Origin: Elusimicrobiota bacterium | GTDB lineage: Bacteria > Elusimicrobiota > Elusimicrobia > 2-02-FULL-39-32 | Direction of reading: 5' to 3' | Assembly: GCA_021730935.1 (NCBI GenBank) | Contig: JAKFYJ010000032.1 | Span: 1-39,965, forward strand | DNA length: 39,965 nucleotides | Shown: one piece after another, positions 19,580 to 29,541 of the stretch | Position numbering within the stretch: position 1 is the stretch's first letter | Layout: every line of letters starts with the position of its first letter | Notes under the pieces: model-generated | Seen by the model: only the letters and a program-made list of their open reading frames with translations | The model's database searches: none | Told to the model about the DNA's origin: nothing | Program-made: the position numbers and the translations under genes

Positions 19580-20518
19580 ATGAAAGTTCTAATCACCGGC
19601 GGCGCAGGGTTTTTGGGCAGCCACATCACCGATTATATGATCAAGCAGGGACACCATGTCACCTGCATGGACAACTTGGTGACAGGTTCAAAGGAGAACA
19701 TCCAACACCTTTTCGGAAATCCTCAATTCTCTTTTGTGAACCAGGATGTGACGAATTTCATTCATGTCCCGGGAAAAATTGATGCCGTGCTCCATTTCGC
19801 GAGCCCCGCGAGCCCCGTGGATTATCTGAAAATTCCCATCCCGACTCTCAAGGTTGGATCTCTCGGAACGCACAAGACTCTCGGCCTCGCTAAAGAAAAG
19901 AAAGCGATATTCATGATTGCCTCCACCTCTGAAGTTTACGGCGACCCTCTCATCAATCCCCAGAACGAAAAATATTGGGGAAATGTGAACCCTGTGGGGC
20001 CGCGCGGCGTCTATGACGAAGCCAAACGGTTCGCAGAAGCGATGACGATGGCTTATCACCGTTATCACAAGATGCCTGTCAGGATCTTGAGAATTTTTAA
20101 CACTTATGGGCCCCGCATGCGCTTGAAAGACGGGAGAGCCATCCCCAACTTTGTGACGCAAGCCATCAAGGGGAGCCCCATCACGGTTTATGGCGACGGG
20201 TCCCAGACCAGAAGCTTGTGTTATGTGGACGATCTGGTGCGCGGAATTTATAAACTCCTTCTCTCCAACATGAATGAGCCGGTCAACATCGGGAACCCCG
20301 AAGAAATCACGCTCATGGAACTGGCGGAGACGGTGAAGTCTCTCGTGAAAAGCAAAAGCAAGATCGTCCTGAAACCCTTGCCTGTGGATGACCCCAAAGT
20401 CCGCTGCCCCGACATCACGCTTGCGAAAAAATCTCTCAAATGGGAACCGCAGGTGTCCCTCAAAGAAGGGCTTGCGAAAACCATCCCATACTTTAGAAAG
20501 GCGTTAAAGGAATCATGA
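19580..20518 (+). CDS. UDP-glucuronate decarboxylase (UDP-xylose synthase)
   Basis: Extended SDR that decarboxylates UDP-glucuronate to UDP-xylose. The diagnostic run is [51 protein letters not shown] (Y145/K149), [19 protein letters not shown] and [16 protein letters not shown], all typical of UXS. The open frame extends upstream into ugd, but the ATG at 19580 is chosen because it gives the canonical [15 protein letters not shown] start at 312 aa and follows the ugd stop by two bases, with GAAGGA at 19561-19566. ugd plus this gene form a two-step UDP-xylose module. Confidence 0.92.
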
Positions 20519-21120
20519 TCTATAGCCAAAAATATCTCGAAGAAGCCGTGCAGATCATCAAGCAGATCGATCCTGCCAAGATTGAAATTCTGGCGGAAAA
20601 ACTGGCCGCCGTCCACAAAAATGGCGGGCGGATGTTTTTTCTGGGCGTGGGGGGAAGCGCGGCCAACGCCTCTCATGCCGTGAACGATTTCAGGAAAATC
20701 TGCGGGATGGAAGCCTATGCCCCGACCGACAATGTGAGCGAACTGACCGCCCGGATCAACGACGACGGCTGGGAAACTTCCCTCACGAACTGGCTCAAGG
20801 GGAGCCGGCTGAACAAGAAAGACGGAATTATGGTTTTTTCTGTGGGCGGGGGAAACGCGGAGAAGAACATCAGCCCCAACATTGTCCACGCGCTCAAATT
20901 TGCGAAACAAATCGGCTGCGGCATTTTCGGAATCGTGGGCAGAGACGGCGGATACACGGCCCAGGTTGCGGACGCGGCCTTGATCGTGCCCACCGTGAAC
21001 CCCGAAACCGTCACCACGCACGCCGAAGCTTTTCAGGCCGTTTTGTGGCACTTGCTCGTCTCCCACCCGAGCTTGAAGGCCAATCAAATGAAATGGGAAT
21101 CAGCAACTGGAACCAAATAA
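20515..21120 (+). CDS. SIS-domain sugar-phosphate isomerase, GmhA-like
   Basis: SIS-fold protein of 201 aa related to sedoheptulose-7-phosphate isomerase GmhA, which makes D-glycero-D-manno-heptose 7-phosphate. Evidence: [23 protein letters not shown] (phosphate-binding Ser-rich loop), [40 protein letters not shown] and the C-terminal [10 protein letters not shown]. It starts on the UXS stop. The presence of transaldolase, HddC-like and HddA-like genes next to it supports a heptose role. Many such SIS genes in glycan loci act on unknown ketose phosphates, so the substrate is inferred from context. Confidence 0.85.
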
Positions 21121-21121
21121 C

Positions 21122-21128
21122 GGAGGAA
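21122..21128 (+). promoter_or_regulatory. Strong Shine-Dalgarno (GGAGGAA) of the transaldolase gene
   Basis: GGAGG lies five bases before the ATG at 21132. The open frame extends upstream through the end of the SIS gene, so this site settles the start. It is among the strongest ribosome sites in the window, where most genes rely on ATGA coupling, and suggests higher or independent translation of the transaldolase. Confidence 0.85.
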
Positions 21129-21131
21129 CAT

Positions 21132-21890
21132 ATGAAATCTGAAACTTTAGAAAAATCTCACTCGACCGCAAGAATCATGAACCGCAAAGATTTGAAGATA
21201 AAAATATACGCGGACGGCGCCAACAAAGACGACATGGTGAGCGCATACAAGAGCAAGATGGCTGACGGGTTCACCACCAACCCTTCTCTCATGCGCAAAG
21301 CCAATGTCACGGATTACGAATCGTTCGCTAAATCCGTTTTGGCCGAAATCAAAGATGTGTCCATCTCCTTTGAAGTCTTCTCGGATGATCTGGACCAGAT
21401 GGAACGCGAAGCCCGCAAGATCGCGACCTGGGGCAAAAACATCCATGTAAAAATCCCGGTTCAAAACACCAAGGGACAATTCAGCGGCCCCCTCATCAAG
21501 AAACTTCACGCGGAAGGCGTGCCCCTGAACATCACGGCCATTCTAACGATCGACCAGGTGAAAAGAGTTTCGGAATGTTTAAGGGGCGATGTTCCTTCCA
21601 TCGTTTCCGTTTTCGCGGGCCGCATCGCGGACACCGGAGTGGACCCCATCCCCGCCATGCTGGAATCGGCAAAAATTTTGAAACCTTTGGCCAAGTGCGA
21701 GCTCCTTTGGGCCAGCACGCGGGAACTCCTCAATGTGGTTCAGGCTGAACAGTGCGGATGCCACATCATCACGGCTCCCAACGACATCCTGAAAAAGCTC
21801 TCCATGCTCGGCAAAGATCTGAGCGAACTGTCTCTGGACACGGTGAAAATGTTCCTGGAAGACAGCACAAAATCGGGATTCAAAATCTAA
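21132..21890 (+). CDS. Transaldolase-family protein
   Basis: Class I aldolase of the transaldolase/fructose-6-phosphate aldolase family, 252 aa from the ATG set by the Shine-Dalgarno. The Schiff-base lysine is K107 in NIHVKIPVQN. Other marks: the DGFTTNPSLM signature, PLNITAILT, SVFAGRIADTGVDP, LLWASTRE and CHIITAPNDIL. The length is between short TalC/FSA (about 220) and classical TalB (about 315). About 25 poorly conserved residues precede the barrel. Transaldolases make sedoheptulose 7-phosphate, the GmhA substrate, and the gene sits directly after the GmhA-like one, so a dedicated heptose-precursor role is plausible. A housekeeping pentose-phosphate role is the alternative. Confidence 0.88.
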   Translation: MKSETLEKSHSTARIMNRKDLKIKIYADGANKDDMVSAYKSKMADGFTTNPSLMRKANVTDYESFAKSVLAEIKDVSISFEVFSDDLDQMEREARKIATWGKNIHVKIPVQNTKGQFSGPLIKKLHAEGVPLNITAILTIDQVKRVSECLRGDVPSIVSVFAGRIADTGVDPIPAMLESAKILKPLAKCELLWASTRELLNVVQAEQCGCHIITAPNDILKKLSMLGKDLSELSLDTVKMFLEDSTKSGFKI

Positions 21891-21900
21891 AAGAGTTTCA

Positions 21901-22842
21901 ATGTCCAGCGGGAAAATTCTCATCACAGGGGTTGCCGGATTCATCGGAAGCAACCTGGCAGACCGCCTTTTAAAAGAGGGGTACGAGGTCACGGGGCTGG
22001 ACAACCTCGCCTACGGCGTGAAAGAACAGATCCCCGCCGGCGTGAAATTCATCAAAGGCGACATCCGCTCCAAGGATATTTATCCGGTCTTCAAAGGCAT
22101 GGACGCGGTTTATCACCTGGCGGCCAAAAACTGCATCTCAGACTGCCAGATCGACCCCGTGGAAACCAGCGACATCAATGTCACGGGAACCGTCAATGTG
22201 TTTGAAGCCGCGAAACAAGCGGGCGTAAAAAAAGTGATCTACGCCGAATCCTCCGCGATTTATGAGGGAAGCTCAAAATATCCCACGCCCGAAGAAGACG
22301 AAAAGCCCGAATCGTTTTATTCCGCGAGCAAGTTCGCAGAGAAAATTTTCGCCGAAGCTTATGTGCGGTTCCATAAAATGAATTTCACGGCGCTCCGATA
22401 TTTTTGCGTTTATGGCCCCAGGCAGGATTATCGCCGGAGCATCCCGCCCGTCATGAGCGCGTTCATCATCAAACTGCTCAGAGGCGAAAAGCCCACCATC
22501 TACGGCACGGGGGAAAAGCGGAGAGATTTTGTTTATGTTGATGACGTGAACGATTTCCACCTGCTTTGCCTGAAAGACCGGCGCACGGACGGCGGAACCT
22601 TCAATGTGGGGAGCGGAGAAAATTATTCCGTGCAGGACATTTTTAACGCCGTGGAAAGCATTTTGAAGACGGGCATCAACCCCGAACACAAGGCGGATCT
22701 CCCCGGAGAGTCGCAGTTGACCTTGGCCGACATCACAAAAGCCAAATCTCTGGGCTGGAAACCCAAAACTTCCCTGAAAGAGGGGCTCTCAAAATCCGTC
22801 GAATATATTCGGGAACATGTGATGGCTCAGGCAAAGGCGTGA
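21901..22842 (+). CDS. NAD-dependent sugar-nucleotide epimerase/dehydratase (extended SDR)
   Basis: Extended SDR of 313 aa with ILITGVAGFIGSNLAD, YHLAAKNCISDCQIDP, AESSAIYEG, the YSASK active site, LRYFCVYGPRQDYRR and RRDFVYVDDVNDF. It is GalE/WbpP-like but the substrate cannot be read from sequence. Its position between transaldolase and HddC/HddA-like genes suggests action on a heptose nucleotide, for example C4 or C6 epimerisation (an HldD/Hdd-type step) or C4-keto chemistry. It lacks a clear Shine-Dalgarno in the 10-base gap, and the nucleotidyltransferase starts on its stop codon (GTGA). Confidence 0.8.
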   Translation: MSSGKILITGVAGFIGSNLADRLLKEGYEVTGLDNLAYGVKEQIPAGVKFIKGDIRSKDIYPVFKGMDAVYHLAAKNCISDCQIDPVETSDINVTGTVNVFEAAKQAGVKKVIYAESSAIYEGSSKYPTPEEDEKPESFYSASKFAEKIFAEAYVRFHKMNFTALRYFCVYGPRQDYRRSIPPVMSAFIIKLLRGEKPTIYGTGEKRRDFVYVDDVNDFHLLCLKDRRTDGGTFNVGSGENYSVQDIFNAVESILKTGINPEHKADLPGESQLTLADITKAKSLGWKPKTSLKEGLSKSVEYIREHVMAQAKA

Positions 22843-23555
22843 ACGACAATTTGGCCAAAGCCCTCGTGCTCTCCGCGGGAAAAGGAACAAGGATCGCGGC
22901 TCTCTCCAGCCGGCGGCCCAAAGTTTTGCTTGAGATCGACGGACAGCCCGTCCTGCACCACAACTTGAGACTGCTCGCCAATCACCGCGTTCAGCAGGTG
23001 TGGATCAACCTGCACTATGAAGCGGAGCAGATTAAAGAATACGCCGGCAACGGCGAAAAATGGGGACTCAGCGTCCAATATTCAGAAGAGAAAGAAATTT
23101 TGGGCACGGCAGGCGCGGTCAAGAATCTGCGCAGCGAATTTTCGGATAAAAATTTTTTCGTGCTTTATGGAGACAACTATACGGACTGCAACCTCTCGGA
23201 GCTTATGCAAACGCACATTAAATCAGGCGCCATGGCGACCCTGGCCCTCTTTGACCCCAAACGAGTTCCCAACAGCGGAATCGCCGGAGGCAGAGTTTTG
23301 ATCAACGCTCAGGGCATCGTGGAAAACTTCATCGAAGGCCAGAGCGGCCAAAACGAAGGCCTCGTCAACGGCGGAGTTTATGCCCTGCATCCCTCGATCT
23401 TGAATGAAATCCCTGAAGGGTTTTCGGATTTCGGCAAGGACATTTTCCCAAAACTCATCAGCCAGGGCAAAAAAATTTCGTCTTATCTCATTCAGGGCTT
23501 TTGTTTCGGCATCGACACCCCGGAAGCCTATCAACAGGCGCAAAAATCACGATGA
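22839..23555 (+). CDS. hddC: Sugar-1-phosphate nucleotidyltransferase, HddC-like
   Basis: Predicted to attach a nucleotide (GMP in characterised HddC) to heptose 1-phosphate. The 238 aa start with a GTG overlapping the previous stop. They show ALVLSAGKGTRIAAL, the RRPKVLLEIDGQPVL lysine motif, EILGTAGAVKN, VLYGDNYTD (metal Asp), VENFIEGQSG, GLVNGGVYALHP and FGIDTPEAY. The short length without a beta-helix matches HddC/RmlA-short types and not GlmU or long RmlA. HddC assignment rests on the adjacent HddA-like kinase. Another NDP-sugar cannot be excluded. Confidence 0.78.
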   Translation: MNDNLAKALVLSAGKGTRIAALSSRRPKVLLEIDGQPVLHHNLRLLANHRVQQVWINLHYEAEQIKEYAGNGEKWGLSVQYSEEKEILGTAGAVKNLRSEFSDKNFFVLYGDNYTDCNLSELMQTHIKSGAMATLALFDPKRVPNSGIAGGRVLINAQGIVENFIEGQSGQNEGLVNGGVYALHPSILNEIPEGFSDFGKDIFPKLISQGKKISSYLIQGFCFGIDTPEAYQQAQKSR

Positions 23556-24583
23556 TCGTTTCCCGAACTCCTTTTAGAGTCACGCTCGGCGGCGGAGGAA
23601 CAGACCTGCCTTCTTTTTATGAAAAGCACGGCGGCATGATTTTGGCCATGGGCTTGGATAAATATATGTATGTCTGCATGAACCGCCCTCTCGTCGAAAA
23701 AAGGATCATCCTCCATTACACCAAAAGCGAATCTGTGGAACATGTTTCCGAACTCAAACATGAGCTCGCGCGCGAAGCGTTCCGCCTGCACGGCATCGAG
23801 CACAGCATGGAAGTGACGTCCCTCGCGGACATTCCGGCCTCCACCGGCCTCGGGTCCTCCTCGTGTTATCTGGTGGGGCTCCTCGTCGCTCTCCATGCGT
23901 ACCGCAAAGATTACATTTCTCTCCAGAGCATCGCCGAAGAGGCCTGCCACATCGAATTGGAAGTGCTCAAAAAAGGGATCGGGAAACAAGACCAATATAT
24001 GGCCGCATATGGCGGAATGACGGTTTTGGACATCGCCAAGGACGGAAAAGTGAAGGTCCGCCAGCTGGCTCTCTCCACCTGGGCCATCGCAGAGCTCGTG
24101 TCCAACTGCCACATTTATTATCTCCAGAAAAAACGCGACGCCGTCCAGATGCTGGAAGACCAAAACCAGGCGATGAAAAAGGAAACGAAAACCCGCTCGC
24201 AAGTGGAAGACAGCCTCTTGAACATCAAGGATTTGGGCCACAGAATTTTGAAGTCCGTGGAAGAAGGGGATTTCGATAATTTCGGACTGCTGATGGATGA
24301 GCATTGGAAGAACAAGAAAAAACTCTCGGACAAAATTTCGTTCAAAGAAGTGGACGACCTTTATGAACTCGTTAAAAAAGATCATGGGGTCCTGGGCGGA
24401 AAAATCATCGGGGCCGGCGGCGGCGGATTTTTGATGCTGTATACTCCTAAAAACGGCAAACAGCTCACAGAATTTATGATGGGCAAAGGTTATGCTCGGC
24501 TCAACTATAATGTCGAATTTGAAGGAAGCAAGGTCGTGACCGACCTGAGAAGTTCCCAGGGACTGGGAGAAGGACACAGTTAA
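23552..24583 (+). CDS. hddA: GHMP kinase, D-glycero-D-manno-heptose 7-phosphate kinase-like
   Basis: Phosphorylates heptose 7-phosphate at C1 in the GDP-heptose route. The 343 aa begin VSRTPFRVTLGGGGTDLPSFY, continue with GLDKYMYVCMNRP, HELAREAFR, the ATP loop DIPASTGLGSSSC, the AEEACHIELEVL helix, GIGKQDQYMAAYGG and the C-terminal KIIGAGGGGFLMLY. These match HddA and the related fucose kinase domain. The frame is open upstream, but the ATG at 23552 overlaps the previous stop (ATGA) and gives the standard N-terminus. The product would need a GmhB-type phosphatase, which is not in the window. Confidence 0.86.
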   Translation: MIVSRTPFRVTLGGGGTDLPSFYEKHGGMILAMGLDKYMYVCMNRPLVEKRIILHYTKSESVEHVSELKHELAREAFRLHGIEHSMEVTSLADIPASTGLGSSSCYLVGLLVALHAYRKDYISLQSIAEEACHIELEVLKKGIGKQDQYMAAYGGMTVLDIAKDGKVKVRQLALSTWAIAELVSNCHIYYLQKKRDAVQMLEDQNQAMKKETKTRSQVEDSLLNIKDLGHRILKSVEEGDFDNFGLLMDEHWKNKKKLSDKISFKEVDDLYELVKKDHGVLGGKIIGAGGGGFLMLYTPKNGKQLTEFMMGKGYARLNYNVEFEGSKVVTDLRSSQGLGEGHS

Positions 24584-25885
24584 ATGGCGAAAAAACCTGT
24601 CATCGGAGTTTTTGGTCTCTGGCATCTGGGATGCGTGCTTTCTTCCGCGTGGTCGAATAAAAAATGCCGCGTGATCGGGTTTGATTATGATCGGGAACTC
24701 ATCCAAAACTTAAACAACGCCGTCCCTCCGATTTTTGAGCCCAACCTCGCGGAAACCATAAAAAAGAATACTCGTCAAAAGTTTTTATCATTTACCTCGA
24801 ATATATCTGAATTGACTGCGTGCGACTTCGTTTTCCTGTCCTATGACACTCCCGTGATGGACGATGACGGAAGTGACCTCACGCCTTTGATCAAAGCCAT
24901 CCATGATTTGGCTGTCGTGCTCAAAAAAGGCGCCCTCGTGATTGTCAGTTCCCAGATGCCTGTGGGGACCTGTCAATCTTTCCGGAAAACGCTCAAAGCA
25001 AAAAATCCGTCCGTCGATTTGGTTTATTCTCCCGAAAACCTGCGGCTGGGCGAAGCGATTCATAATTATTTGAACCCGGGGCGCATCATTTTGGGATCCG
25101 AAGATAAATCAGCTGAGAAAAAAGCCCTCGGCCTTTTCAAAATGATCCCTGCGAAAGTTTTCACCATGAACCTCGAGAGCGCCGAAATGGTCAAGCACGG
25201 GATCAACGCGTTTCTGTCGACCTCCATCGTTTTCACCAACGACCTTTCCGACATCTGCGAGAAAACCGGAGCGGACATCCAGGATGTTGTGAGGGGGATG
25301 AAGTCGGATCCCAGGATCGGCGAGAAAGCGTATCTTTCGCCCGGCATCGGGTTTTCAGGCGGAACCCTGGGGAGAGACCTCAAAGTTTTGGAATCCGCCG
25401 GAAGCAAATCGAACGGATCAAAAAACATATTTTCAGAAATTCATTCCCGAAATTCTGCGCGCAAATTTTCTGTCTTGAAGCGCCTCAAATCTTTCTTCCC
25501 TCAGAATGAGCTCAAAAACAAAAAAATCGGAATTCTGGGCCTCACCTATAAACCCGGGACCAGCACCTTGAGGCGAAGCCTGCCCGCGGAAATTGTTCAG
25601 GAACTCCTCAAAGAATGTCCCTCGGTCACCATTTTTGACCCGAAAGCGGATTTCAGCCAATGGAGCGGAAAAACGCGTCTTCAGACAGCGCCGTCGGCCG
25701 AGCAAGTGGTCAAAGATTCTGACGCGGTTATGGTTTTGACCGAATGGCCTGAATTCAAAAACATAAAATGGAAATCTCTTCTGCGAAATAATAATCCCCA
25801 AATCATCTATGACACGAAAAACTGCCTCATGGACCTGAACCTCGGAGCCGCAGGCTACCAATACATACGCATAGGAAAAAACTGA
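24584..25885 (+). CDS. UDP-glucose/GDP-mannose dehydrogenase family protein lacking the catalytic cysteine
   Basis: Full-length member (433 aa) of the UDP-glucose dehydrogenase family with unusual features. The Rossmann loop reads GVFGLWHLGCV where GTGYVGL is usual. SYDTPVMDDDGSD, SSQMPVGTCQ and YSPENLRLGEA follow. The Lys and Asn of MVKHGINAF are kept. The active-site segment is GIGFSGGTLGRDL: T261 stands where C260 stands in the neighbour ugd, and the following FPKD becomes LGRD. The C-terminal ILGLTYKPGTSTLRRS domain is present. Without the thiol the usual oxidation of aldehyde to acid should not proceed, so it may do a single oxidation, epimerise, or bind NAD for another reaction. It is not degenerate otherwise and directly follows hddA. 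Confidence 0.85.
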   Translation: MAKKPVIGVFGLWHLGCVLSSAWSNKKCRVIGFDYDRELIQNLNNAVPPIFEPNLAETIKKNTRQKFLSFTSNISELTACDFVFLSYDTPVMDDDGSDLTPLIKAIHDLAVVLKKGALVIVSSQMPVGTCQSFRKTLKAKNPSVDLVYSPENLRLGEAIHNYLNPGRIILGSEDKSAEKKALGLFKMIPAKVFTMNLESAEMVKHGINAFLSTSIVFTNDLSDICEKTGADIQDVVRGMKSDPRIGEKAYLSPGIGFSGGTLGRDLKVLESAGSKSNGSKNIFSEIHSRNSARKFSVLKRLKSFFPQNELKNKKIGILGLTYKPGTSTLRRSLPAEIVQELLKECPSVTIFDPKADFSQWSGKTRLQTAPSAEQVVKDSDAVMVLTEWPEFKNIKWKSLLRNNNPQIIYDTKNCLMDLNLGAAGYQYIRIGKN

Positions 25886-25886
25886 C

Positions 25887-26750
25887 ATGAACCCATCTCT
25901 CAAAGGCAAGACCATCCTCATCACGGGGGGAAGCATCGGCATCGGCAAAGTGGTCGCGGAATTCTGCGCGAAGGCAAGCGCCCTTGTCATCATCACTTCC
26001 CGCACGGAATCGGATCTTAAAACGGAGCTCGAGATCTTAAAAAAAATCAGCCCCATGGACCACCAATACCGCGTGATGGATGTGGGGAATCGTTCCCAAG
26101 TCGAAGAAACGGCTGTCTGGGTGAAAGAAGAATTCGGATCTCTGGACGGGCTCATCAATAACGCGGGGATTTATGGTCCCATCGGACCCATTCAGGACAT
26201 CAGCCTGGACGATTTTGAAAAAACCATGCAGATCAATTTTATGGGCACCGTTTATATGTGCCATTATTTCGCGCCCCTCCTCAAAGAACGGAAAGGGAAA
26301 ATCATCAATTTTTCCGGCGGCGGCGCGTCCGGGCCCTTCGTAAATTATTCCGCCTATGCGTCATCGAAAACAGCGGTCGTCCGCCTCACCGAAAACATGG
26401 CCGAAGAGCTTGCGCCCCTGGGCATTGAGGTTAATGCAGTGGGTCCAGGATTTGTGGTGACGCGGCTCCATGAACAGACGATTCTGGCAGGCGAAGGCAA
26501 AGCGGGCAAGAACTTTTTAGAAAACACTAAAAAACAGATCGAAAAAGGCGGAGTCCCTCCGGAAAAGGCCGCGGCCCTCTCGGTCTATTTGATGTCCGAC
26601 GAATCCAAAGGCATCAACGGCAAATTCATCAGCGCGCCCTGGGACCCGTGGGAGAAACCCGAGTTCGTCGAGAAACTCAAGAAGGACAAAAATTTCGCGA
26701 CACTGCGCCGCATCGATGAGATGAACTTCAGGGACGCCAAACAGGCCTGA
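25887..26750 (+). CDS. Classical short-chain dehydrogenase/reductase
   Basis: Classical SDR oxidoreductase, 287 aa: ILITGGSIGIGKVVA (cofactor loop), INNAGIYG, the INFMGTVYMC helix, Ser in NFSGGGASG, the YASSK pair and VNAVGPGFVVTRLHE. It carries a C-terminal extension of about 40 residues after the fold (NGKFISAPWDPWEKPEF onward) that is longer than usual. NAD(P) preference is not clear. Located between the cysteine-less dehydrogenase and a methyltransferase, it probably reduces or oxidises a keto-sugar nucleotide. A fatty-acyl substrate is the alternative. Confidence 0.85.
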   Translation: MNPSLKGKTILITGGSIGIGKVVAEFCAKASALVIITSRTESDLKTELEILKKISPMDHQYRVMDVGNRSQVEETAVWVKEEFGSLDGLINNAGIYGPIGPIQDISLDDFEKTMQINFMGTVYMCHYFAPLLKERKGKIINFSGGGASGPFVNYSAYASSKTAVVRLTENMAEELAPLGIEVNAVGPGFVVTRLHEQTILAGEGKAGKNFLENTKKQIEKGGVPPEKAAALSVYLMSDESKGINGKFISAPWDPWEKPEFVEKLKKDKNFATLRRIDEMNFRDAKQA

Positions 26751-26751
26751 T

Positions 26752-27603
26752 TTGAATATTGAAAGGTGCGTCCTTTGTTCCGAACCGCAAGACCGGTTCA
26801 AGCCCTATTGCGAAAGAAGCGGATATAAAATTGTCCGGTGCGGCGCGTGCGGACTGATTTTTGTAAACCCAAGAGACGAAGAAGGCAGGATTGAAGGGCA
26901 ATATCTGGAAAACCTCACTTCGCCCGCGGCTTATTATGCGGCGACAGCCGAAGAAGATCGTGAAAATGGGGAGAAAGTATTAAAGGTCATTGAAAAATAT
27001 TCCAGGAAGGGGACTTTGCTGGACGTCGGGTGCAATGTGGGGACCTTTCTTGAAACAGCCAGAGATTCAGGCTGGAACGCCAGCGGGCTCGACGCAAACC
27101 CTGAAACTGTCAGCCATTGCAGGCAAAAGGGTTTGAATGTTTTTCAGGGGTTCTTCGGAAAGGACAAAAGCGCATCCGGATTGAGCGGAGAATTCGATGT
27201 GCTCGCGATGAACGACACGATCGAGCATTTCCCGAACCCAAGGGAAGCGGTCCGCGCCTCAAAGGCATTCATCAAAACGCGAGGATATATTTCGGTTCTG
27301 ACTCCGAACATCGAGAGTCCGCTTGCCAGAATGTTTCAGATCAAGCCGAAAGAGCATCTTTTTTATTTCAGCATGTCCACCCTGACGCAGATGCTCGAGG
27401 CGGAAGGGTTCAGGGTGGTGCACATGCAGGAGTGGCCGAGAAAGAGGAATGTCGGAGCCATGCATTTGGGCGCAACCTTCGAGAACCCCATGTGGAAATG
27501 GGTTTCAAAATTTTTAAGTCTCACAAAACTGGATATCATCGTAAACGCCATGCTCGAAATTTTATTTAAAGAACAAATATTAGCGGTCGCCCAAAAATCA
27601 TGA
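26752..27603 (+). CDS. Class I SAM-dependent methyltransferase with N-terminal zinc-binding motif
   Basis: The 283 aa start with TTG one base after the previous stop. Four cysteines C6, C9, C30 and C33 (CVLC and CGAC) form a likely zinc knuckle, followed by GLIFVNPRDEEG. The SAM-binding motif I is LLDVGCNVGTFLE at about residues 89-101, the acidic loop is GLDANPE, and AMNDTIEHFPNPREAV fits motif IV. This layout resembles C- or O-methyltransferases of sugar and glycan loci. It lacks the long C-terminal domain of the roughly 410-aa sugar C-methyltransferases, so O-methylation of a glycan end or sugar is as likely as C-methylation. It overlaps the next gene by ATGA. Confidence 0.85.
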   Translation: MNIERCVLCSEPQDRFKPYCERSGYKIVRCGACGLIFVNPRDEEGRIEGQYLENLTSPAAYYAATAEEDRENGEKVLKVIEKYSRKGTLLDVGCNVGTFLETARDSGWNASGLDANPETVSHCRQKGLNVFQGFFGKDKSASGLSGEFDVLAMNDTIEHFPNPREAVRASKAFIKTRGYISVLTPNIESPLARMFQIKPKEHLFYFSMSTLTQMLEAEGFRVVHMQEWPRKRNVGAMHLGATFENPMWKWVSKFLSLTKLDIIVNAMLEILFKEQILAVAQKS

Positions 27604-28526
27604 TCTCCGTCATCGTGCCGCTTTATAATGAGGAAAGCAACGTGGCGCCTCTTCACGCGTCTCTCACCCTGCGGCTTGAAGCGCTCTCGGAGCCCTATGA
27701 AATCATCTTCATCGATGACGGGTCCACCGACAGGACCTTTGAACGGATGAAAGGGCTGAAAAATATCCGCGCCATCCGCTTCGCCAGAAATTTCGGACAG
27801 ACGTCCGCCATGGACGCGGGATTCAAGGCCGCCCAAGGAGACATCCTCGTCACCCTGGACGGAGACCTGCAGAACGATCCGGAAGACATTCCAAACCTGA
27901 TCGCAAAAATCAGGGAAGGATACGACGTTGTTTCCGGCTGGAGAAAGGACCGCCACGATCCCCTGGGAAGAAAAGTGCTTTCCAAACTCGCCAACGGACT
28001 CACGCGCAAAGTGACCGGGCTCTATCTTCACGATCACGCCTGCGCCCTGAAGGCTTACCGCAAAGATATTTTCAAAGATGTCCACCTCTATGGTGAAATG
28101 CATGTGTTCCTTCCGGCCTATCTTTACGGCAGAGGCGCGAAAGTGGCGGAAATCCCTGTGAAGCATCACTCGAGGACTGAAGGCATTTCAAAACATTCCA
28201 TCGGGAAAGCCTTCAAAGACTTGTCGGACCTCGTGACGGTTTATTTCCTGTCCCAGCACATGAACCGGCCGCTTTTGTTTTTCGGCGGAATCTCGCTCCT
28301 CATGATCGGACTCGGAATCCTTTCCGCCTTGGCCGCGACCGTGCTTAAAATTCTGCAGATCAGGAATTACGGCCAGACGCCCCTGCCCATCCTCGCCGTA
28401 TTTTTGATGATCATCGGGTTCATGCTTTTCATGATGGGTTTTTTGGCGGAACTGGTATTGAGAGTTTATTTTGAGGGGCAGAACAAAACCCCATACATCA
28501 TCAAGGAAAAAATTGAAAATATATAA
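27600..28526 (+). CDS. Polyprenyl-phosphate glycosyltransferase (GT2, GtrB/ArnC/DPM1 type)
   Basis: Membrane GT2 of 308 aa that transfers a sugar from a nucleotide to undecaprenyl phosphate. The catalytic domain has SVIVPLYNEESNV, IIFIDDGSTDRT, FGQTSAMDAGF and the metal motif D87-G88-D89 in TLDGDLQNDPEDI, followed by VSGWRKDRHDP and HSRTEGISKHS. Two C-terminal membrane spans, about residues 225-250 and 262-287, fit the GtrB/ArnC topology. Its lipid-linked sugar would be a donor for the GT-C-like membrane proteins at 32140 and 34020. The sugar is unknown. Confidence 0.9.
   Translation: MISVIVPLYNEESNVAPLHASLTLRLEALSEPYEIIFIDDGSTDRTFERMKGLKNIRAIRFARNFGQTSAMDAGFKAAQGDILVTLDGDLQNDPEDIPNLIAKIREGYDVVSGWRKDRHDPLGRKVLSKLANGLTRKVTGLYLHDHACALKAYRKDIFKDVHLYGEMHVFLPAYLYGRGAKVAEIPVKHHSRTEGISKHSIGKAFKDLSDLVTVYFLSQHMNRPLLFFGGISLLMIGLGILSALAATVLKILQIRNYGQTPLPILAVFLMIIGFMLFMMGFLAELVLRVYFEGQNKTPYIIKEKIENI
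28503..28507 (+). promoter_or_regulatory. Shine-Dalgarno (AAGGA) selecting a TTG start for the Gfo/Idh oxidoreductase
   Basis: AAGGA lies five bases before TTG at 28513. The open frame also has an upstream ATG at 28471, which would add 14 residues inside the GT2 coding region. The TTG start with this site gives an N-terminus beginning just before the Rossmann strand, so it is preferred. Confidence 0.65.
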
Positions 28527-29541
28527 AACTCTTCGGACCGCCATCGTCGGATGCGGGCTGATCGGCAAAAAACGAGCCCGCTGGGTCCAGGAAGACCCCA
28601 GGACCGCTCTCGATTCCGTCGTGGATTTGAACCGCGCCAACGCCGACGCTCTCGCCGCGGAATTTCAGGTGAAGGCGGAAACGGATTGGAAGCAGGCCGT
28701 CAAAAATCCGGACATCGACATCGTGATCGTCTCCACGCCCAACCATCTGCTTTGTCCCATCGCCTCTGCCGCGCTGAAAGCGGGCAAACATGTTTTGATC
28801 GAAAAGCCCATGGGAAGGTCCCTGGCTGAAGCAAAAATAATGGCAAAGGCCTCCAAGTCAGCCGGCAAAAAACTTAAAGTCGGATTCAACCACCGCTATC
28901 ATCCCGCTTTGCTGGAAGCGCATGACATCATCGAAAACGGTGAAATCGGAAAAATTATAAACCTCCGCGCGATTTATGGTCACGGCGGCAGGATGGGGTA
29001 TGAAAAGGAATGGCGCGGCAACCCCAAACTCTCAGGCGGGGGAGAACTGACGGACCAGGGCGTGCACCTGATCAACCTCATGGAATGGTTTTGCGGGGAA
29101 CCCAAACAAGTTTCATGTTTTCTCCAGACCGCGCATTGGAACATCAAACCCTCGGAAGACAACGGGTTTGCGATCCTGCGCTTCAAAGGCGGCGTTCTGG
29201 GAAGTTTTCACAGCAGCTGGACGCAATGGAAAAACGCTTTTGCATTTGAGGTCTTCGGCGACAAAGGGTTTATTTCCATCAACGGCCTGGGGGGAAGTTA
29301 CGGAGCGGAAACCCTCACGATCGGGACAAGAAAAGCTCCGGGACAGGTCCCTGAGATGTCCTCAAAAACATTTGAAGGCGAAGATTTATCCTGGAAAAGG
29401 GAGTGGGACGATTTCGTTTCTTCCATCGAGAACCCCAAACGGCGGATGATGGGCGGCGCCGAAGAGTCTGTCAGCGTCATGAAAGTTCTGGACGCGCTTT
29501 ACCGATCGAACCGTTCCGGCAAAACCATAATTTTAAATTAA
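28513..29541 (+). CDS. Gfo/Idh/MocA family oxidoreductase
   Basis: NAD(P)-dependent sugar oxidoreductase, 342 aa from the TTG start. Rossmann domain: TAIVGCGLIGKKRA, VVDLNRANADAL, IDIVIVSTPNHLL and the hallmark HVLIEKPMG lysine. The C-terminal beta-sheet domain has KVGFNHRYHP, GGGELTDQGVHLINLMEW (catalytic Asp/His) and SFHSSWTQWKNAF. Related enzymes oxidise or reduce C3 of sugar nucleotides in O-antigen loci. It overlaps the GT2 stop by 14 bases. The substrate cannot be told from sequence. Confidence 0.9.
   Translation: MKIYKTLRTAIVGCGLIGKKRARWVQEDPRTALDSVVDLNRANADALAAEFQVKAETDWKQAVKNPDIDIVIVSTPNHLLCPIASAALKAGKHVLIEKPMGRSLAEAKIMAKASKSAGKKLKVGFNHRYHPALLEAHDIIENGEIGKIINLRAIYGHGGRMGYEKEWRGNPKLSGGGELTDQGVHLINLMEWFCGEPKQVSCFLQTAHWNIKPSEDNGFAILRFKGGVLGSFHSSWTQWKNAFAFEVFGDKGFISINGLGGSYGAETLTIGTRKAPGQVPEMSSKTFEGEDLSWKREWDDFVSSIENPKRRMMGGAEESVSVMKVLDALYRSNRSGKTIILN

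Follow-up and report, generated by a model that had tools for sequence, protein, structure and literature searches.

A cysteine-less branch of the UDP-glucose dehydrogenase family linked to genes of a probable octose pathway in surface-glycan loci

What reaction is left to an enzyme of the UDP-glucose dehydrogenase (UGD) family that has threonine in place of the catalytic cysteine? Such a protein, here called UGDc, is encoded in the 39,965-nucleotide stretch of DNA that we analysed (the window), a contig of a 2.7-Mb Elusimicrobiota genome. Judged by eye, the window carries his and trp genes, folC, a ROK kinase gene and lptD, followed by a surface-polysaccharide locus, to which UGDc belongs (Table 1). 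The most likely role of the UGDc branch, from the analysis, is a two-electron step in the making of octose nucleotides for surface glycans.

Table 1. Positions in the window of the UGDc gene, its diagnostic residues and its neighbours
Feature	Position	Strand	Basis
SIS-domain (GmhA-like) sugar-phosphate isomerase, LmbN-like role	20515..21120	+	Pfam SIS_2; nearest solved structures are phosphoheptose isomerases (47 bits)
Transaldolase, LmbR-like role	21132..21890	+	Transaldolase-type Glu/Phe active site; VSVFAGRIADT motif
NAD-dependent epimerase/dehydratase, putative LmbM-like role	21901..22842	+	Nearest solved structures are UDP-glucose 4-epimerases; linked to UGDc
Sugar-1-phosphate nucleotidyltransferase, LmbO-like role	22839..23555	+	Family models, structure matches
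GHMP sugar kinase, HddA-related, LmbP-like role	23552..24583	+	Family models, structure matches
UGDc, Cys-less UDP-glucose/GDP-mannose dehydrogenase-family enzyme	24584..25885	+	Family models, alignment with solved UGDs, AlphaFold
GLWHLG (residues 11-16), altered NAD-binding glycine loop	24614..24631	+	W13 in 83/84 and H14 in 84/84 of clade
Gln124 replacing active-site Thr (SpUGD Thr118, human Thr131)	24953..24955	+	Gln in 84/84 of clade, Thr in 25/25 canonical
Glu151-Asn152-Leu153-Arg154-Leu155: Glu141 equivalent kept, Phe142 to Asn, Glu145 to Leu	25034..25048	+	Alignment
Thr261-Leu-Gly-Arg-Asp265: catalytic Cys to Thr, Asp264 equivalent kept	25364..25378	+	Thr in 84/84 of clade, Cys in 25/25 canonical
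Classical SDR, candidate ketone reductase	25887..26750	+	Pfam; linked to UGDc across phyla
SAM-dependent methyltransferase	26752..27603	+	Strong match beside UGDc only in closest relative
Family 2 glycosyltransferase	27600..28526	+	Family models
Gfo/Idh/MocA oxidoreductase, LmbZ-like role	28471..29541	+	Pfam; linked to UGDc

Family membership and residue signature

The UGDc reading frame is open throughout, with no internal stop, and codes for 433 amino acids. Its product matches PF03721, PF00984 and PF03720, all above cut-off (E = 1e-35, 2e-21 and 4e-23), and scores 310.9 bits with TIGR03026 (cut-off 189.8). It is 31% identical to the window's own canonical UGD; the nearest named relative, among the best 80 of 330 relatives, is an Elusimicrobia MAG (73% identity). 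The AlphaFold model has a mean pLDDT of 92.7, and a Foldseek comparison places the predicted fold close to UGD structures (TM about 0.83-0.92), the best matches being BceC, the P. gingivalis UGD and UgdG (TM 0.87-0.92). By this model, the fold is that of the solved members of the superfamily.

An earlier note on the window had described UGDc as a full-length paralogue with T261 facing C260 of the window's UGD, and alignment bears this out, also against the catalytic cysteine of solved UGDs. The motifs GLWHLG, SPENLR and VKHGIN are present as that note had listed them, and the Lys/Asn pair, the Glu and the Asp that it took to be retained (K204, N208, E151 and D265) are invariant in the 84 clade members that were aligned with 25 canonical UGDs. 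It went wrong in holding that a single catalytic residue had been lost from an otherwise intact enzyme: Q124, N152 and L155 also replace Thr, Phe and Glu. Asn is found at position 152 in every clade member, as against Phe in every canonical UGD; position 155 is Leu in the clade, with one Ile among the 84, and Glu in 24 of the 25 canonical sequences. At the positions of W13 and H14 all 25 canonical enzymes have G and Y, giving the loop GxGYVG. Further sites are fixed or nearly so in each group and differ between them, namely L262 (Phe in canonical UGDs), R264 (Lys), Y322 (Phe) and T328 (Asp); E151, K204, N208, R244, D265 and K323 are fixed in both.

What do these replacements remove? We take Q124, N152, L155 and T261 to be the equivalents of Thr118, Phe142, Glu145 and Cys260 of the Streptococcus pyogenes enzyme, in which Glu145 is assigned to thioester hydrolysis. 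Among the residues that mark a canonical four-electron UGD, UGDc lacks the Cys of GGxCxPKD, Glu145 and Thr118, and it has Lys204, Asn208, Glu141 and Asp264. In human UGDH, Asp280 with a water molecule is the general base in oxidation, Lys220 stabilises charge, and Cys276 makes the covalent intermediates; when this Cys is changed to Ser the enzyme stalls as a covalent adduct (PMC3184952). To judge from which residues are replaced and which are invariant, and from these roles in the human enzyme, the UGDc clade has lost the thioester half of the machinery and kept the hydride-transfer half.

Spread and gene neighbourhood of the clade

Scanning one genome per species yielded 330 relatives, and the 80 best of them were retained. 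The search patterns contained PENLRLG and SAEMxKH, so the set is biased towards both, and T261, Q124 and the WH loop lay outside the patterns. To these loci were added related genomes, a viral contig and Lawsonia plasmid 3. The 84 collected members span more than 20 phyla, archaea included, and none has the Cys; a homologue in the same gene context that had regained it, which the earlier note had named as contrary evidence, was looked for among them and not found. In a quick maximum-likelihood tree the Cys-less sequences, together with the divergent L009 (Asn for Cys), split from canonical UGDs with 98% SH-aLRT support. Because Q124, N152 and T261 occur in 84 of 84 members, the signature is not due to chance, and because the clade splits off with such support, its sequences identify it as a separate enzyme family and not a product of decay. 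A pseudogene reading was likewise rejected on conservation. Within the UGD family, the UGDc clade represents a branch that is large and old and has lost the cysteine chemistry. The earlier note's preference for a changed reaction over decay gains support from the conserved clade and its signature, as does, from alignment, tree and loci, its suggestion that GLWHLG and GGT-x-RD mark a conserved clade with linkage to an HddA-like kinase.

Archaeal carriers (L058, L066, L093 and L102, from Nitrosopumilaceae, Methanoperedens and Thermoplasmata) have the Cys-less enzyme with all or parts of the gene set described below. The 44.7-kb IMG/VR contig 3300044712_000253 (L033, G060) encodes it together with SIS, transaldolase, epimerase, kinase, SDR and Gfo/Idh genes, and also has a canonical UGD-like gene; a giant-virus-like origin is suggested by proteins with collagen repeats, DUF4379 and DUF723. 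A divergent relative at L145:9496-10785 (G026:C34) has Asn for Cys (GGNIERD) and is accompanied by SIS and octose-type transaldolase genes and, by eye, by genes resembling those of a sugar aminotransferase and of the nucleotidyltransferase RfaE, possibly reflecting a variant pathway.

Which genes accompany UGDc? Linkage was scored in the 43 clade loci that extend over 15 kb or more, with 20 canonical UGDs of related genomes as a control. A GHMP kinase, an SDR and a Gfo/Idh oxidoreductase were each present in 41 of the 43, a nucleotidyltransferase in 39, a transaldolase in 38, an SIS isomerase in 36 and a HAD phosphatase in 31. SIS, transaldolase, nucleotidyltransferase and GHMP kinase genes occurred together in 34 of the 43 clade loci and in 0 of the 20 canonical-UGD loci (Fisher p = 7e-10, for sets that differ in taxonomy, with some shorter controls and with loci that are not independent). 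The commonest order, SDR-Gfo/Idh-kinase-nucleotidyltransferase-SIS-HAD-transaldolase, was seen in 12 loci, and 38 of 44 loci had all genes of the set co-stranded. About 20 named phyla, Methanobacteriota and Nitrososphaerota among them, contribute loci that combine SIS, transaldolase and kinase genes; a few UGDc loci, L143 for example, have no transaldolase or SIS gene nearby. No HAD phosphatase gene was found in the window's block.

A complete octose-type set, annotated as separate sugar genes, is present on plasmid 3 of a pig isolate of Lawsonia intracellularis (L115, 3580-34866), in the order SIS-HAD-transaldolase-UGDc-SDR-Gfo/Idh-kinase-nucleotidyltransferase with one extra gene in between.

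The transaldolase of the window is the only TAL_FSA gene of its genome. Glu and Phe characterise a transaldolase active site, and Gln and Tyr that of fructose 6-phosphate aldolase; all operon-linked copies have Glu and Phe. Most of these copies form one clade with the motif VSVFAGRIADT, separate from the ordinary transaldolases that related genomes encode. The idea that the window copy is a housekeeping transaldolase was rejected since it groups with this majority; a minority of linked copies (for example L042, L043 and several from Chloroflexota) lie outside the main operon clade and fall with ordinary ones. In L122 and L123, from the same family as the window genome, the locus reads rmlA-epi-rmlB-rmlD-UGD-UXS-transaldolase-GMD-ABC: the transaldolase is kept between UXS and GMD, and the SIS gene and the block from epimerase to Gfo/Idh are absent. 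This block therefore behaves as a cassette that is gained or lost around the transaldolase, and since these two loci keep the transaldolase without the rest, the enzyme may have a second job in this lineage.

Candidate substrates and reactions

The gene context expected of an LmbL-type octose enzyme (transaldolase, SIS isomerase, kinase, nucleotidyltransferase and Gfo/Idh) is found in the window among the genes at 20515-29541. LmbL, of lincomycin biosynthesis, is reportedly a UGD-family protein that acts as a 6,8-dehydratase. The lincomycin subcluster is lmbRSOPZNML (PMC7014725), and Lmb proteins have been classed as transaldolase (R), aminotransferase (S), guanylyltransferase (O), kinase (P), oxidoreductase (Z), isomerase (N), epimerase (M), 'C8 dehydrogenase' (L) and phosphatase (K) (PMC4351081 Table 2). 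LmbR makes an octulose by transferring a C3 unit to the acceptor ribose 5-phosphate (PMC5854111), and GDP-octose is converted to GDP-lincosamide by LmbM, LmbL, CcbZ and CcbS (PMC12945683).

By analogy, we think it fairly likely that UGDc is an active NAD-dependent enzyme of UGD fold, confined to two-electron chemistry, whose site of attack is C6 of an eight-carbon sugar bound to a nucleotide. We infer all of the reactions, as well as the C8 length and the nucleotide. The transaldolase would put a C3 unit on ribose 5-phosphate to give octulose 8-phosphate, which the SIS isomerase would convert to octose 8-phosphate; the GHMP kinase, a phosphatase and the nucleotidyltransferase would then yield an NDP-octose. 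Tentatively, the nucleotide is probably GDP, the best nucleotidyltransferase model being that of mannose-1-phosphate guanylyltransferase, with a score far below its cut-off. After the epimerase had reset one stereocentre, the Cys-less enzyme would take the C6 alcohol to the ketone. Most likely the bound NADH would next give the hydride back after loss of the 8-hydroxyl (6,8-dehydration), forming a 6-keto-8-deoxy-octose and probably making UGDc an internal-redox dehydratase; the SDR and Gfo/Idh enzymes would reduce or epimerise the product before its transfer to a surface glycan. Since C6 of an octose is a secondary alcohol, its oxidation would end at the ketone, and neither a Cys thioester nor a hydrolytic Glu145 would be needed; the coordinated residue losses would follow from this. 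Counting against the octose explanation are the UGDc loci that lack a neighbouring transaldolase or SIS gene, the linked transaldolases that lie outside the main clade, the retention of the transaldolase but not the block in L122 and L123, and the missing HAD phosphatase gene in the window's block.

Within the octose explanation we lean somewhat towards dehydration over net oxidation of C6. In the latter variant UGDc would be a plain C6 dehydrogenase that releases NADH and the 6-keto sugar, which the SDR would reduce with inversion, so that the two together form a C6 epimerase and no dehydration takes place. The frequent presence of an SDR near UGDc fits such a pairing, as does the fact that an LmbS-type aminotransferase was seen in neither of the two places looked at, the window and the annotated Lawsonia locus. 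However, an SDR could equally work after dehydration, the block already has an epimerase, and the equivalent lincomycin step is reportedly a dehydration; we regard this variant as rather unlikely. A heptose in place of the octose, as the earlier note had proposed in speaking of a heptose block and a heptose nucleotide, seems more doubtful still. The heptose pathway begins at sedoheptulose 7-phosphate, from which a GmhA-like isomerase and an HddA-like kinase could lead to an NDP-heptose, UGDc forming a 6-keto-heptose for epimerisation or reduction and the transaldolase merely supplying or balancing sedoheptulose 7-phosphate. The closest characterised relatives of isomerase and kinase are indeed heptose enzymes, the GDP-D-glycero-D-manno-heptose pathway (GmhA, HddA, GmhB, HddC) shares the fold classes of isomerase, kinase and nucleotidyltransferase, loss of Cys fits a heptose equally well, its C6 too being a secondary alcohol, and loci such as L143 do without a nearby transaldolase. 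But the window genes score far below the curated cut-offs of the heptose equivalogs (in bits, HddA 138 against 600, HddC 90 against 300, GmhA 50 against 209), and on these scores the heptose assignment was set aside; moreover, a specialised transaldolase clade travels with the block in many phyla, and we know of no described GDP-heptose pathway that includes a dedicated transaldolase or a UGD-like enzyme. The low scores and the dedicated transaldolase weaken the heptose reading, and a lincomycin-type octose (C8) pathway fits better.

Might UGDc have no new reaction at all? With Cys, Glu145 and Thr118 gone and a canonical UGD encoded 5 kb upstream in the same window, it could be a catalytically dead paralogue that serves that UGD as a structural or regulatory partner. 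This is very improbable, given that the equivalents of Lys204, Asn208, Glu141, Arg244 and Asp264 are invariant in 84 sequences from many phyla, that the predicted fold is intact, and that UGDc is linked to octose-type genes and not to UGD. Nor is it any more credible that Thr261 or another group stands in for Cys and that UGDc remains an ordinary four-electron dehydrogenase: its fold and most of its binding residues resemble those of UGDs, but the human Cys-to-Ser enzyme stalls, and Glu145 and Thr118 have been lost along with the Cys.

Implications and comparison with known systems

Hundreds of genomes label UGDc as, for instance, 'nucleotide sugar dehydrogenase', a name that predicts uronic acids as products, although these probably do not arise. 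Should the octose explanation be true, a route known mainly from one antibiotic class would be common, from Elusimicrobiota to Methanoperedens, as a part of surface polysaccharides. Its simple marker would then be the invariant Q/N/L/T signature. UGDc would also be a case of a four-electron oxidase turned into a two-electron enzyme by way of a secondary-alcohol substrate. More broadly, and with a little more doubt than belief, we suggest that a widespread, unrecognised pathway to an eight-carbon, probably 8-deoxy, surface-glycan sugar exists in bacteria, in archaea and possibly on the giant-virus-like contig, built on a UGD-fold internal-redox dehydratase, and that the lincomycin octose is one offshoot of it. 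Branched octoses of the C-4 hydroxyethyl type do occur in polysaccharides (PMC4753412); searches of the literature on octoses and octuloses in polysaccharides gave no match for the UGDc gene set.

With canonical UGDs of the TuaD/BceC/UgdG type, UGDc shares the three-domain fold (TM about 0.9 to BceC and UgdG) and the oxidation residues; it differs in replacing Cys, Thr118, Phe142 and Glu145 and in having GLWHLG for GxGYVG. With LmbL/CcbL the likeness lies in gene context and, probably, in chemistry. In a plasmid collection the best actinobacterial matches to UGDc had 30-31% identity, and two Streptomyces loci among them, when inspected, had ordinary surroundings. Both kinds of enzyme are encoded in operons with transaldolase, SIS isomerase, GHMP kinase, nucleotidyltransferase, epimerase and Gfo/Idh genes, and all the enzyme types of the lincosamide set recur with UGDc except the aminotransferase and, in the window, the phosphatase. 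The lincosamide clusters have LmbS, whereas UGDc loci nearly always have a classical SDR and a surface-glycan context.
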